From the NCBI GenBank assembly GCA_026988015.1, contig JALSMA010000034.1:1-64000 (forward strand): a stretch of DNA of 64,000 bases. Reading direction: 5' to 3'. This document shows, piece by piece, positions 32,319-59,212 of this stretch. The translations under genes were made by a program, and so were the position numbers. The notes beneath the pieces were generated by a model, which searched no databases, was not told the DNA's origin, and saw only the letters and a list, made by a program, of their open reading frames with translations. How positions within the stretch are numbered: the stretch's first letter is position 1; every line of letters starts with the position of its first letter. The DNA comes from Desulfobulbaceae bacterium. GTDB taxonomy: Bacteria; Desulfobacterota; Desulfobulbia; Desulfobulbales; Desulfocapsaceae.

Positions 32319-33407
32319 TCAGAGAAGCATATTGAAAAGGTATCCGGTAAAGAGAATACCACTACCGACCACAGCTATGAAAACTGCGATCAGCTTGGGC
32401 TTAAGAACCTTGCGCAGGATTACTATTTCCGGTAGAGACAGGGCAATCACACTCATCATGAAGGCGAGAACTGTTCCCAGGGCTGCACCTTTACCAAGTA
32501 GAGCTTCAACTACAGGAACGATACCTGCGGCATTCGAATACATTGGGATTCCCACAAGAACTGCTGCCGGTACTGACCACCAGGAATCCTTCCCCATAAC
32601 CTTTGCCATGAAATCTTCAGGTATGTAACCGTGTATGACAGCACCTACTGCAATACCGACCAAGACATAGAGCCAGACTTTTCCTATAACTTCCCGAACT
32701 GCGTCTTTTCCTCGTATTATCCTGTCAGACCAGCTGGGTTTTTCTTCAAATACCAGTGCCTCTGCGGTACGCATTTCCTGTACCCACTCTTCGATCCAGT
32801 GTTCGAGGCCGAGCCGGCCAATGATCCATCCTGAAATAATGGCAATCAACAACCCGCTTGTGAGATAGATTGCAGCAACTTTCCATCCCAGTAATCCATA
32901 GAGAAGAATCAGCGCTATTTCATTTACCATTGGCGCTGCAATGAGAAACGAAAATGTAACTCCCAAGGGGACACCTGCCTGAACAAAACCCAGGAAAAGC
33001 GGGACTGCGGAGCAGGAACAGAAAGGGGTAACAATTCCGAGAAAGGCAGCCATGACATTACCAGCTGATTCCCGTTTTCCTGCAAGATACTTGCGAGTGC
33101 GTTCCTGGGTGAAAAATGAACGAATCATGCCGATGACAAAGACTATGAGGGTGAGCAACATCATAACCTTTGGGGCGTCATAGATAAAAAACTGAACGGC
33201 ATCGCCAAGGTGGCTTCCTTTGGAAAGGCCGAAAAGGTTGTAGGAAACAAATTGGGAAAAGGGTAGGAGTTGTCGGTAAATCAGGTACCAGAGAATTAGC
33301 CCCAGCAGGGCAATAGCAACCTGGCCAGGAGTTATCTTTCTGTTTTTAGTTTGTGGAGCTCCGGAGCAGCAGCTGTTGTTTGCTGAAAGGTTTGGAAGAG
33401 GTTTCAT
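32319..33407 (-). CDS. Permease of the ArsP/YraQ (DUF318) family
   Basis: A 362-residue polytopic membrane protein with the family motif TPFCSCSAVPLFLGF (Cys130, Cys132) and an N-terminal Cys-Cys pair at residues 13-14. Family members include ArsP, which exports trivalent organoarsenicals, and permeases linked to copper/zinc resistance. It shares ATGA with the upstream arsR-type gene whose sensor has a thiolate pair, so control by a soft metal or metalloid is likely. The exact substrate is unknown. The cytoplasmic loop around residues 205-240 is highly charged. Confidence 0.88.
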   Translation of the reverse strand: MKPLPNLSANNSCCSGAPQTKNRKITPGQVAIALLGLILWYLIYRQLLPFSQFVSYNLFGLSKGSHLGDAVQFFIYDAPKVMMLLTLIVFVIGMIRSFFTQERTRKYLAGKRESAGNVMAAFLGIVTPFCSCSAVPLFLGFVQAGVPLGVTFSFLIAAPMVNEIALILLYGLLGWKVAAIYLTSGLLIAIISGWIIGRLGLEHWIEEWVQEMRTAEALVFEEKPSWSDRIIRGKDAVREVIGKVWLYVLVGIAVGAVIHGYIPEDFMAKVMGKDSWWSVPAAVLVGIPMYSNAAGIVPVVEALLGKGAALGTVLAFMMSVIALSLPEIVILRKVLKPKLIAVFIAVVGSGILFTGYLFNMLL

Positions 33408-33769
33408 AATGGTAGTCTCGTGTATTGACTGCAGTTCGGTTCCCTGATAACCTTGGGAACGGTTTCAAGCATCTTCTCAAGAACTGGATCGTCCGACAGC
33501 CAGTCCGTGAGATTGGCAAGCATTGTTTTGGCGTATACTGATTCTTCTCCATCACTGAGTTGGTAGATGATCCATGACCCCTGTTTGTAGTAATGCACAA
33601 GGTCAGCCTCTTCGAGGAGTTTCATATGTTTGGATACTGTTGACTGGGCAAGCCCGATCAGGGGGTGAAGCTCACAGACACAGAGCTCCTGTTGATGTTG
33701 CAGCAGTTTGAGAATGCGGACCCGGTTAGGATCAGACAGTGCTTTCATCACCCGAATAAATTCTTTCAT
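33404..33769 (-). CDS. ArsR/SmtB family metalloregulator
   Basis: A 121-residue winged-helix repressor. ATG 33769 (AAGG upstream) gives MKEFIRVMKALSDPNRVRIL, the standard ArsR opening. The helix carrying the sensor is ELCVCEL, with Cys30 and Cys32 in the position that binds As(III)/Sb(III) in ArsR; the recognition helix is LAQSTVSKHMKLLEEADLV. It overlaps the permease gene by four bases and faces a divergent small Fe-S-type gene across 87 bases, so it may control both. A direct repeat in that gap is a candidate operator. Confidence 0.92.
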   Translation of the reverse strand: MKEFIRVMKALSDPNRVRILKLLQHQQELCVCELHPLIGLAQSTVSKHMKLLEEADLVHYYKQGSWIIYQLSDGEESVYAKTMLANLTDWLSDDPVLEKMLETVPKVIREPNCSQYTRLPL

Positions 33770-33817: not shown

Positions 33818-33856
33818 TAATGTGTGGTATGCTGAAGTCAAGACAAAAGGTAAATT

Positions 33857-34081
33857 ATGAGAAAAATAATCTGTTATTGTCATCATTACTCAGTGGATGA
33901 TCTGGAAGATGATCTGCTCCAGCATGGGCGATCCACCATACTCGAGTGGATCATTGTGTTGTCAGGAAAGGGCAGGTGTGATTGTAGTCACAACAATCCA
34001 AAGGGCAGGTGATGCCTTGATGATGTTCGCAGGGTTGTGAACAATAAATTGCAGTTGATGGGGAAGAAGCCAGTAGGATAA
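33857..34081 (+). CDS. Small BFD/CopZ-N-like [2Fe-2S] protein, candidate selenoprotein (in-frame TGA at codon 52)
   Basis: ATG 33857 with AAAAGG six bases upstream opens a frame starting MRKIICYCHHYSVDDLEDD and running to GRCDCSHNNPKGR, then TGA (34010-34012), then CLDDVRR and 15 more codons to TAA. The Cys pattern (CYC near the start, CDC at 41-43, NPxGRxCLxDV) is that of short bacterioferritin-associated-ferredoxin-like / CopZ N-terminal Fe-S proteins, in which, from memory, the position of the TGA is normally cysteine. A SECIS-like hairpin follows the TGA. I therefore read TGA as selenocysteine, giving 74 residues; the alternative is a nonsense mutation. It is divergent from arsR-permease and precedes rlmKL by 69 bases. 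Confidence 0.65.
34025..34042 (+). promoter_or_regulatory. SECIS-like hairpin
   Basis: GTTCGC (34025-34030) pairs with GTGAAC (34037-34042, one G-U pair) around the six-base loop AGGGTT. The loop G residues lie about 20 bases after the TGA at 34010-34012, close to the spacing in E. coli fdhF, whose apical loop is AGGUCU flanked by GC. The lower stem extends by T-A, G-U and T-A pairs with one mismatch (34021-34024 with 34043-34046). Confidence 0.55.
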
Positions 34082-36310: not shown

Positions 36311-36670
36311 ATGATACAGGAACTGAGCCCCGCTGAGGTGCGGGAGCGAATGGAAGAGAAAGGGGCCTTTGTGGTGAATATAGTTACAGCATGGTGTCCC
36401 GATTGTACCGAGCGGCAACAACCTAATTTTCCGGAATTTGTGAAGAAGATGGCGGCTGGAGGTGTGGTGGTGTATCAGTGCTGTGTCCAAGATGAAAAGC
36501 TGGTCTTTATCTCAGATGAGCACGATTCGCTGGTTAATGATTTTGGTGGTCATGGCTATCCGCGTACTGTGCTGATTCGGGATGGTAAGGTACTTGATTC
36601 CAGGAAGGAAGTGATGGATGGTCTTGCCTTGTCTATGCTGGCGGATGATTTTTTTAAACAGTTGCCTTAA
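36311..36670 (+). CDS. Thioredoxin-fold protein with WCPDC motif
   Basis: A 119-residue cytoplasmic thioredoxin-like protein. The redox motif is WCPDC (Cys29, Cys32) after the strand FVVNIVTA, and the cis-proline loop is GYPRTVLIRDGK, as in thioredoxins. Two further adjacent cysteines (YQCCVQDE) lie in the middle strand. It follows rlmKL by 9 bases and is probably co-transcribed. The CPDC active site differs from the CGPC of ordinary thioredoxins, so the partner is uncertain. Confidence 0.85.
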   Translation: MIQELSPAEVRERMEEKGAFVVNIVTAWCPDCTERQQPNFPEFVKKMAAGGVVVYQCCVQDEKLVFISDEHDSLVNDFGGHGYPRTVLIRDGKVLDSRKEVMDGLALSMLADDFFKQLP

Positions 36671-37772: not shown

Positions 37773-38405
37773 TCAAGCAGGCTTTGGAGCCAGCATACCT
37801 TCACGGACGATGAATTCCAGGATGTCACCTACACCCTGTCCAGTTTTCATGTTGGTAAAAACATAGGGGCGTGTACCACGCATCTTTTTAGTGTCTCGAT
37901 CCATGACCGACAATGAAGCACCCACCAGGGGGGCAAGATCTGTTTTATTGATCACCAGCAGGTCAGAGCGGGTGATTCCCGGACCGCCTTTGCGTGGAAT
38001 CTTGTCTCCTGCGGCCACGTCAATGACATAGATGGCGAGATCTGCCAGTTCCGGGCTGAAGGTGGCGCTGAGATTGTCGCCACCACTTTCAATGATGATC
38101 AAATCTAGATTCGGGAATGTTTTTATGAAATCGGCCACGGCAGCAAGATTCATGGAAGCATCTTCGCGAATGGCGGTGTGAGGACAGCCACCGGTTTCGA
38201 CTCCGGTGATGCGTTCAGCCGGCAGGGCCTCATTGCTGGTGAGAAATTTTGCGTCCTCTCTGGTATAGATATCGTTGGTAACAACGCATACTTCATAGAT
38301 ATCACGCATTTTGTGGCACAGGGCCTGGATGAGTGCTGTTTTTCCGGAACCCACTGGACCGCCGATACCGAGGCGGAGGATGGAGTTGTTTTTTGAATGT
38401 GTCAT
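37773..38405 (-). CDS. ureG: Urease accessory GTPase UreG
   Basis: GTPase that powers nickel delivery to apo-urease, 210 residues. From ATG 38405 (GAGG upstream) the P-loop GPVGSGKT is at residues 16-23, the invariant [14 protein letters not shown] (Cys-Pro-His nickel/zinc site) is present, with [18 protein letters not shown] and NKTDL for guanine. The frame is open upstream but that extension has no family match. It is the last gene of the operon and is followed by a terminator. Confidence 0.96.
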
Positions 38406-38448
38406 TGGTTTTTCCTCGTAAGGTGTGATGGTCATGGTTGCAGTGATC

Positions 38449-39120
38449 CTATGATCTGTAAAGTCTGGTATACTGTGTTTCGTGAAGGCAGCAGGCGAGA
38501 GTGAAGGCCGGGCTTGCAGCACCGATTTCGGCATCACTGCACGCTAATCCCTTGTCCACATTTCTGGCCACCGAAGAGCTGAGCTGTAGTAACAGCTGCT
38601 GCCCCTGGCTCTGGCCCAGGGGGATAATCTTGACTCCGGTGAGGAGTTGATTGTCCAGCCAGGACCAGACATAACCAAGGGCAGCCTCTCGCATACTGAT
38701 ATGCCACTTTATGGCCATGTAAACATATCCTGCAAGCTGGCTCTTTTTCAGAATATGTGCCGGGAAATTAGAATCCAGTAGATTGAGGCTTTCCAGCAGA
38801 CTGTACAGTGCCCGGCCTCTGGTCTGCTCTTCCGCCTGCATCTCAGAGCTTTCACGGCAGGCAAAGAGCAGGTCGGACCACTGTTCCAGGTCGGATATTT
38901 CACCGCATTCAATGACTTCAAACATCCGCCTAAAGATGGGAACATCAATATGAACCATGGAGTTGGAAATCAGATCTGAGAGCCATTGTTCAAGGCTTGA
39001 TTTATCATGCACCCATCCGGCTTCCACAGCCCATTCGAGGCCCTGTGAGTAACTGAAGGCACCGGTGGGCAGGTTGGGGCTTACCAGATGGAGAAGATGC
39101 AGCAGAGAGTGACTATTCAT
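38449..39120 (-). CDS. ureF: Urease accessory protein UreF
   Basis: A 223-residue all-helical protein that acts with UreD/UreH and UreG in nickel insertion. Family hallmarks: [24 protein letters not shown] at the N-terminus and [10 protein letters not shown] at the very C-terminus. ATG 39120 is chosen because it gives the standard start and lies 8 bases inside ureE, consistent with coupling; upstream in-frame codons belong to the ureE tail. Located between ureE and ureG, as in most urease operons. Confidence 0.94.
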
Positions 39121-39567: not shown

Positions 39568-41271
39568 TCAGAAAAGAAAGTAGCGTTGGGCCATGGGCAG
39601 GGTGACTGCGGGTTCACAGTGCAGCAGTTCTCCGTCTGCACGAACTTGGTAAGTTTGCGAGTCAACCTCAATTTCAGGCTGGTAGTCGTTAAGTATCATG
39701 TCTTTTTTTCTTACACTCCGGCATCCTTTTACCACCCCCATCAAGCTCCTGAGTTTGAGTCGTTCTGCGATACCGTTATCAGCTGCAGCCGTCGAGAGAA
39801 AAGTCATGGAGGTAGCATTTTGTGCAAGGCCAAGGGAGGCAAACATTGGTCGGTAATGGACAGGCTGTGGTGAGGGGATAGAGGCATTGGGATCTCCCAT
39901 GGGGGCAGCGGCTATCATTCCACCTTTTATGATCAGGCTCGGTTTAACCCCGAACAGGGCAGGTTTCCACAGAACCAGATCGGCAAGCTTACCGGTTTCA
40001 ATGGAACCCACCTCATGGCTGATACCATGAGCTATAGCCGGATTAATTGTGTACTTGGCTATATAGCGTCTGGCACGGATATTGTCATGGCGGCCAGGGT
40101 CACCATTGAGGCTGCCACGCTGCACCTTCATCTTGTGGGCCGTTTGCCAGGTGCGGATGATTACTTCTCCCACACGGCCCATGGCCTGGGAATCTGAAGC
40201 AATCATTGAGAATGCCCCGAGGTCATGGAGGATGTCTTCGGCAGCTATGGTTTCCCTGCGGATACGGGATTCTGCAAAGGCTACATCTTCGGCAATCTTC
40301 GGGTCAAGGTGGTGGCAGACCATGAGCATGTCCAGGTGTTCATCCACGGTGTTTATGGTGTAGGGCCGTGTGGGATTGGTGGATGATGGCAGAACATTGC
40401 TGAGACCACAGGCTCGAATGATATCCGGGGCATGGCCACCTCCTGCCCCTTCGGTGTGATAAGTGTGGATGCAACGGTCTTTAAAGGCGGCAATGGTCTG
40501 TTCCACAAATCCAGATTCATTTAAGGTGTCGGTGTGGATGGCCACCTGTACGTCCATCTTTTCGGCAACTGTGAGGCAGTTATCGATGGAGGCAGGTGTT
40601 GTTCCCCAGTCCTCATGGAGCTTCAGTCCCATTGCCCCTGCCTGGAGTTGCTCCATGAGTGAATCTGGAAGGCTGGCATTACCTTTACCTAGAAATCCCA
40701 GGTTCATAGGGAGTGAATCTGCGGCCTCGAGCATACGGTGAATGTTCCAGGTGCCAGGAGTGCAGGTGGTTGCGTTGGTTCCGGTGGCGGGCCCTGTTCC
40801 GCCGCCAAGCATTGTGGTGATACCACTGTTCAGGGCTTCTTCTATCTGCTGGGGACAGATGAAATGGATGTGAGAGTCAATTCCGCCTGCTGTGACAATA
40901 GAGCCTTCTCCGGCAATAGCTTCTGTGCCAGGCCCGATGATGATATCAACACCGGGCTGCACGTCAGGGTTTCCCGCCTTGCCTATGCCACTGATACGGC
41001 CGTTTTTGACTCCTATGTCTGCCTTGATGATTCCCCAGTGATCAAGGATAAGCGCATTGGTGATCACCAGATCGGCCACATCTGCTCCTGTCCGCTGGCT
41101 CTGGCCCATGCCGTCCCGTATCACTTTGCCACCGCCGAATTTTACTTCATCGCCATAGATGCAGCGGTCTTCCTCAACCTCTATCCATAACTCAGTATCG
41201 GCGAGACGAACTCGGTCACCGATTGTAGGACCGAACATCTCAGCGTAGGCCCTGCGATCTATATCCGTCAT
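39568..41271 (-). CDS. ureC: Urease subunit alpha
   Basis: Catalytic subunit of nickel urease, 567 residues. All metal ligands are at the same positions as in Klebsiella urease: His134 and His136 (IDSHIH), carbamylated Lys217 (GLKLHED), His246 (AIHTDT), His272 (YHTEG) and Asp360 (ASDSQAMG); the catalytic flap His320 lies in VCHHLD. The enzyme should therefore be active, giving ammonia and carbonate from urea. It shares ATGA with ureB and is followed by ureE, ureF and ureG. Confidence 0.98.
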
Positions 41272-58948: not shown

Positions 58949-58977
58949 TTGACACTGAAATGATCTCATAGTAGACT
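58949..58977 (+). promoter_or_regulatory. Sigma-70 promoter of the cobalamin riboswitch transcript
   Basis: TTGACA (58949-58954), a 17-base spacer and TAGACT (58972-58977). The predicted start at about 58984 is a few bases ahead of the riboswitch P1 stem, which fits well. Confidence 0.65.
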
Positions 58978-58988
58978 CCTATGCAGTA

Positions 58989-59152
58989 TTTTCAGGTTCT
59001 GCGAAAGCAGATGAAGAGGGAATCCGGTGTAAATCCGGGATGGGCCCGCCGCTGTAACCGGGGACGAATTTCGCTGAAAGCCACTGTCATTATTGAGTGA
59101 TGGGAAGGCGCGAAAAGAGGGTGATCCGGAAGTCAGAAGACCTGCCTGAAAA
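58989..59152 (+). ncRNA. Cobalamin (B12) riboswitch aptamer
   Basis: The closing P1 stem pairs TTTTCAGG (58989-58996) with CCTGAAAA (59145-59152). In order inside it are AGAGGGAATCCGGTGTAAAT, the B12-box region CCGCCGCTGTAACCGG, GCCACTG, ATGGGAAGG and the AGTCAGAAGACCTGCC signature. All conserved blocks of the class are present, so it should bind adenosylcobalamin or a related corrinoid. Confidence 0.95.
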
Positions 59153-59212
59153 AGATTTCATGTCCTAGGCAAAGGAGTGAGATTGTAGATATATCTGGGA
59201 TAAAGACGGGAC

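Follow-up and report, generated by a model that had tools for sequence, protein, structure and literature searches.

Forms 1 and 2 of a (2Fe-2S)-binding protein of the copper chaperone CopZ family are named as selenoprotein families in the excerpted text of two reviews, PMC13188914 (the newer) and PMC9312934. In these excerpts, Table 1 of PMC13188914 gives domain cd10141 and the motif GxUC for form 1 and the motif CU for form 2, with the wording "predicted with high confidence", and PMC9312934 lists form 1 without a motif. The former paper credits both forms to its reference 61, which is PMC2398784. The terms CopZ, copper chaperone, and 2Fe-2S are absent from the main text both of that paper and of PMC5029168. 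Across the part of the literature that was covered, no paper was found that reports form 1 within an ars or a mer operon. The gene described here is one that a conventional gene finder would cut at an in-frame TGA or miss, yet it has 116 copies with that TGA in one bacterial class, and, judging from comparison of these copies, its product is almost certainly a 74-residue selenoprotein.

The window, the whole stretch of 64,000 nucleotides that was analyzed (positions 1 to 64,000, forward strand, of contig JALSMA010000034.1 in assembly GCA_026988015.1, from a Desulfobulbaceae bacterium), has the following features at this locus, given with the evidence for each.

33857–34081, plus strand: predicted selenoprotein gene, 74 aa, Sec as residue 52, [2Fe-2S] BFD/CopZ-N-like (frame, family matches, comparison, predicted fold)
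33845–33851, plus strand: weak Shine-Dalgarno sequence, AAAAGGT (sequence)
34010–34012, plus strand: in-frame TGA taken as selenocysteine, U52 (TGA in 116 of 119 copies, Cys in 3, TAA or TAG in 0)
34024–34043, plus strand: predicted bacterial SECIS hairpin, stem 34025–34031/34036–34042, loop GGGU at 34032–34035 (folding and comparison)
33404–33769, minus strand: gene for an ArsR/SmtB-family metalloregulator, divergent from the selenoprotein gene (NF033788; HTH_5; inferred start)
32319–33407, minus strand: gene for an ArsP_1-family permease with an FCSCS motif, 4 bases shared with the arsR gene (PF03773, E = 2e-78)

The frame opens at an ATG (33857), runs for 51 codons to the TGA, which is codon 52, and continues for 22 codons beginning CLDDV to a TAA at 34079–34081, a layout that the original prediction had described and that is present in full. 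The ribosome-binding site had been called good as well; the ATG stands, but the Shine-Dalgarno sequence is graded as weak. The read-through product has CYC near the N-terminus, CDC in the middle of the protein, and NPKGR-U-C-LDDV later, and its soft ligands number six (C6, C8, C41, C43, U52, and C53).

Homologs from related genomes carry either Sec or Cys at the position of the TGA. A first protein search of 56 genomes, that of the window and 55 relatives, matched 30, among which 27 have a TGA copy at the same place (two copies in G010), G025 and G055 have Cys copies, and G012 has an N-terminal piece only. The extra stops in the copies of G010 and G023 fall downstream of the Sec codon. Homologs with Cys at the UGA position include L028 and L029. 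A profile search over 257 genomes of the window's class matched 119 genomes, and 120 regions were examined, the window included. The motif is present in 119 regions; the remaining one (L075, from G012) retains just an N-terminal portion of the gene, which is apparently broken or frameshifted. Codon 52 is TGA in 116 of the 119 copies, Cys in three (L073, L074, and L275), and TAA or TAG in none, although the genome search tolerates stops and reads through them. These counts leave out 11 short or broken places (two each in G186:C65 and G226:C50 and one each in G073, G083, G056, G244:C22, G168, G199, and G200:C213) and a second, weak match in G004 (C35, E = 0.008). Both the alignment of homologs at this position and the search for other stop codons there thus agree with a predicted swap of Sec for Cys. 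Cys directly follows the TGA or Cys position in 119 of 119 copies, the U-C pair being kept in 116 of 116 Sec copies, and in every one of the latter the frame stays open for 13–53 residues past the TGA. The peptide encoded there is conserved: all 116 have C at +1, 105 have L at +2, and 112 have V at +5. In other phyla, relatives have Cys-Cys at the same place (293 confirmed, 80 kept), but the pattern used in that scan itself required CC, which means that these numbers say nothing on their frequency. When the window protein alone was compared with the genome contigs in a first scan, 212 pattern matches were returned and zero relatives were confirmed.

A hairpin had been predicted just 3′ of the TGA, with loop Gs about 20 bases downstream, and it is found with these Gs at 20–22 nt and with a further closing U-A pair (34024/34043). 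Folded as a single 54-nt sequence, the window copy is not significant (z = −0.34; matched by 62 of 200 shuffles), and single-sequence folding was dropped as evidence for a SECIS in favor of comparison. Across 27 aligned copies, 94.2% of the cells in the seven-pair stem are paired and 15 cells carry changes on both sides; when the stem is slid, pairing is 29.6–64.6%. Stem cells at the same offsets are paired in 95% of cases in 116 Sec copies versus 45% in 81 Cys copies (78 of the 80 Cys loci, those with enough sequence, and the three Cys copies of the class), the latter coming mostly from other phyla and having peptides similar, not identical, to those of Sec copies. Six or seven of the seven pairs form in 113 of 116 Sec copies, and the loop Gs are retained in 107 and 110 of the 116. 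The mean minimum free energy of a 24-nt piece is −10.4 kcal/mol in Sec copies versus −4.7 (sd 0.2) in 100 synonymous-codon shuffles; the hairpin is thus far more stable than the shuffles and is not explained by the encoded peptide. By the same measure, the mean of the Cys set (−2.0) is close to that of its own shuffles (−1.7, sd 0.14). One stem pair is C-G in 69, U-A in 39, and U-G in 7 Sec copies, and on a tree built from DNA upstream of the TGA, which excludes the hairpin bases, double changes between U-A and C-G at this pair number at least 10. A test of independent pairs over supported branches gave means of 3.4 in the same direction, 0 in the opposite direction, and 2.6 without a difference, too few for significance.

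Comparison of the copies indicates that the hairpin just after the TGA is a bacterial SECIS and that selection maintains codon 52, a UGA, as Sec with this element just 3′ of it. We read the TGA as Sec because it is TGA in nearly all class copies and another stop codon in none, and because the stem is paired far more fully in Sec copies than in Cys copies. If the TGA were instead an ordinary stop, the gene would encode a 51-residue protein or be a pseudogene, with a downstream frame open by chance. A gene finder would end the gene there, and the hairpin of the window taken singly lends this reading some support, but a chance frame is at odds with the conserved peptide after the TGA, with the lack of TAA and TAG, and with a hairpin conserved in TGA copies and not in Cys copies. 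An ordinary stop or pseudogene is therefore very improbable, being ruled out by these three lines as far as sequence can do so.

The host has the machinery to decode UGA as Sec: the genome of the window has SelA (597 bits, cut-off 268), SelB (375 bits, cut-off 242), SelD (374 bits, cut-off 125), and a tRNA-Sec with anticodon UCA (76.1 bits), the complete set that the original prediction had proposed to look for. The SelD gene (L044 1501–2442, minus strand, G000:C17) has an in-frame TGA, read as SGUAAK, and looks to encode a selenoprotein itself. We take this TGA to be at the usual Sec/Cys site of SelD, and a Sec-bearing SelD is consistent with UGA being decoded as Sec in this genome. At E ≤ 1e−60, SelB was not found in 4 of 27 Sec-carrying genomes (G003, G017, G019, and G029). 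Co-occurrence with SelB was rejected as a test because SelB is in 49 of 56 genomes at this threshold, which makes it uninformative.

Family models place the protein near the N-terminal domain of CopZ (CopZ-N). The window copy scores 45.3 bits against NF047645 (CopZ_Nterm_CC; cut-off 100), over profile positions 86–137 of 138, and 33 bits against the C-terminal part of NF045877 (CopZ_Nterm_CU; cut-off 190), and in an alignment of 27 members these models match 27 and 26, respectively. The Pfam model Fer2_BFD (PF04324) does not match the window copy; it matches 18 of the 27 aligned members at E ≤ 0.01, and one member that was scored reached 21.6 bits versus a gathering threshold of 26. The only Pfam match of the window protein, a viral family at E = 0.11, is at chance level and was set aside. 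In a profile search of the PDB, the sole significant relative is 2hu9, the N-terminal domain of CopZ (E = 3.4e−6), in which CYC...C...NPSGRCC lines up and the counterpart of U52 is, by counting, Cys118; the pattern CxC...C...NPxG-x-[CU]-C is present in the window protein. An AlphaFold2 model from 44 alignment rows has a pLDDT of 95.2 and a pTM of 0.83. Its VIA-align Z values are modest: the best match is Bfd at Z 6.2 (rmsd 2.3 over 53 residues), and 2hu9, at Z 3.9 (rmsd 2.0 over 59), ranks below Rev1 chains that are unrelated and score Z 4.2. Foldseek alone returned nothing for the predicted model at E ≤ 0.001. Cys relatives are often longer, 50 of the 79 with a frame that was read having 139 to 183 residues and, by eye, an extra N-terminal Cys-rich part. 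The kinship to BFD and CopZ-N that had been predicted is thus backed by NCBIfam matches below cut-off, by the profile match to 2hu9, and, more weakly, by the predicted fold. The likeness to CopZ-N is partial: the BFD-like part is kept, and the N-terminal Cys-rich part is missing. Family matches and, less strongly, the modeled fold support a stand-alone [2Fe-2S] BFD-like domain that is related to the C-terminal half of CopZ-N.

In the window, the divergent gene that had been predicted to encode an ArsR-type repressor passes the cut-off of NF033788 (92.1 bits versus 55, E = 1.4e−26). For the ArsP_1 permease encoded next to it, the nearest NCBIfam models, SaoE and SO_0444, are both below cut-off; several relatives have a homolog of this permease encoded upstream of their selenoprotein gene. 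Between the divergent genes, a search for an ArsR operator found a 6-base palindrome only, and a promoter scan found two promoter-like sites versus 1.1 expected, both on the minus strand. Sec was also sought in the neighboring permease family, where all 17 sites of the FCSC/LCSC type are Cys-x-Cys; five further matches to the pattern with U were rejected, their frames being judged by eye as noncoding. A plasmid search gave six records, every one below 60% identity. On the plus strand, the selenoprotein gene is followed by rlmKL, which is a near neighbor in 3 of 116 copies, the window included, and is probably unrelated to it. Elsewhere in the window, a small thioredoxin/redoxin-like protein with a WCPDC motif is encoded after rlmKL (36311–36670, plus strand), with a homolog, by eye, after rlmKL in L050. 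A cobalamin riboswitch is at 58977–59163 (plus strand, 127.7 bits). A match to RF02514 (5_ureB_sRNA; 40840–41120, plus strand, 109 bits), perhaps the ureB coding sequence itself, is near a UreG-like gene, assigned by eye (37773–38537, minus strand).

Across the class, blastp probes detect an ars- or mer-type neighbor within 2.5 kb of 36 of 116 Sec copies (ArsR at 20, ArsP_1 permease at 17, low-molecular-weight arsenate reductase at 20, MerR at 7, MerA-like at 5, and MerT at 3). The probes find none at the other 80, where many flanks are short and ended by contig ends. Probe matches are concentrated near the gene, with 20 in 121 kb within 2.5 kb versus 5 in 238 kb farther away at 27 loci (L046 to L072, flanks of up to about 8 kb), and four of the five far matches belong to clusters in L052 and L067 already counted as near. 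In L060, L063, L197, L245, and L248, genes on one strand are in the order arsR, permease, Sec gene, and arsenate reductase, and in L211 and L230 the order is MerR, Sec gene, MerT, and then MerA. When representatives were checked with family models, the MerA of L211 and the ArsR of L063 passed NCBIfam cut-offs, and the arsenate reductases, MerR, and MerT were below NCBIfam equivalog cut-offs, those tested passing the cut-offs of Pfam. Matches to the MerA-like probe may include other flavoproteins, the one checked being that of L211.

Other surroundings also recur. In 23 Sec copies (e.g., L070 and L266), a homologous permease is directly downstream, and that of L266, the one tested, is TauE/SafE. 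CrcB-like and DUF190-like genes, assigned by eye, recur at 17 and 15 of 116 loci, respectively, as a second neighborhood. Given the 80 copies without an ars- or mer-type neighbor and the 23 with another permease, the partner or substrate may vary among Sec copies. The 80 Cys loci have, by eye, MerR-type (31), MerT/P-like (31), ArsR-type (24), HMA/MerP-like (23), and MerA-like (16) neighbors, and in planctomycete MAGs (L081, L087, L091, L104, L110, and L151) the Cys domain is, by eye, seemingly fused to a MerT-like membrane segment. These neighbors suggest a part for the protein in handling soft metals that are toxic, arsenic and mercury among them.

The likeliest role, in our view, is that of a partner protein in detoxification operons that either binds soft metal(loid)s or has a redox function. 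Its place in the window would be next to the divergent arsR–arsP_1 unit, where it would serve in the cytoplasm as a binding or redox partner in the detoxification of metal(loid)s, with arsenite-type or mercury ions as the best candidates. Four of the six soft ligands would hold the [2Fe-2S] cluster, and the spare ligands and a selenolate beside the last cluster ligand would bind or reduce the metal(loid), the selenolate next to the cluster serving as soft ligand or electron relay. A metal(loid)-binding role has, in our judgment, about an even chance. We hold more tentatively, and rather doubtfully, the specific proposal that the protein is a compact metallochaperone encoded in ars- and mer-type operons. 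Its Sec-Cys pair, adjacent to the cluster or among its ligands, would capture arsenite or mercury and pass it to a transporter of the ArsP_1 or MerT type, and selenium would be used because of its affinity toward soft metal(loid)s and not for catalysis. Compatible with other roles is the idea that U52 itself ligates the cluster, which would make this a natural selenolate-ligated iron-sulfur protein. U52 is among just six soft ligands, U-C is kept in all Sec copies, and the Cys residues in the aligned part of Archaeoglobus fulgidus CopZ-N are, by counting, only C75, C77, C109, C118, and C119, so the last pair must supply the fourth ligand. However, the cluster ligands of 2HU9 are presumably Cys75, Cys77, Cys109, and Cys119, that is, C119 and not the counterpart of U52, and this would place U52 beside a cluster ligand instead of making it one. 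We consider ligation by U52 unlikely.

The selenoprotein could also be real and its job redox instead of metal delivery, with the Sec-Cys pair by the cluster acting as an electron donor or reductase toward arsenate reductase, a sulfur compound, or a thiol. The solved structure that ranks highest, Bfd, is an electron-donating ferredoxin, 16 of 116 copies have a low-molecular-weight arsenate reductase of the thioredoxin class encoded no more than about 400 bp away, and the TauE/SafE-like permease that follows the gene in 23 copies is in line with a redox function as well. Against it, Cys relatives adjoin MerR-, MerT-, and MerP-like genes and, by eye, some are fused to MerT-like segments, so that metal handling is indicated, and in the window and L046 the ArsP_1 permease adjoins the Sec gene with no reductase found nearby. 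We regard a purely redox job as a serious possibility that nevertheless falls somewhat short of probable.

Relative to described proteins, the window protein is closest in kind to form 1, with the same domain type by name and a G-R-U-C that fits GxUC; its likeness to the form 1 representative WP_245779778.1 is by motif and domain name, and the excerpted passages give neither function nor neighborhood for that protein. It matches the C-terminal part of NF047645, a putative iron-sulfur cluster-binding metallochaperone, but at 45.3 versus 100 bits, without the N-terminal part and with Sec for the first Cys of the pair. Likewise, NF045877 (the Csac_0668 family, form 2) has a related domain that scores 33 bits, under a cut-off of 190, but Sec is second in the pair there, by the listed motif, and first in the window. 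Full CopZ has a zinc site and an HMA domain. The A. fulgidus CopZ-N (2hu9) shares with the window protein a profile match, an aligned Cys pattern, and a superposition of 2.0 Å over 59 residues, whereas the latter covers only about residues 70 to 130 and has Sec for Cys118. Bfd, the bacterioferritin-associated [2Fe-2S] ferredoxin, gives the best VIA-align rows (4e6k_G and 6e6r, Z of 6.2 and 5.7), but Foldseek gave no match at E ≤ 0.001, Bfd is not known to contain Sec, and its Cys spacing differs. NF045683, a MerT/CopZ fusion-like heavy metal transport selenoprotein, joins by name the parts that are separate and side by side in L211 and L230, and its MerT part aligns with the MerT of L211 at a score below cut-off; the 74-residue window protein, unlike this fusion, is without a membrane part and has no MerT gene beside it in the window. 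The kind of gene, by motif and domain name, is thus one already listed by others as form 1, and the context is an addition, possibly one known to others. This context makes an uncharacterized selenoprotein entry into a testable idea, namely that Sec can act as a ligand for soft metals when arsenic and mercury are detoxified. The protein would also offer a natural system with selenium beside, or on, an iron-sulfur cluster.
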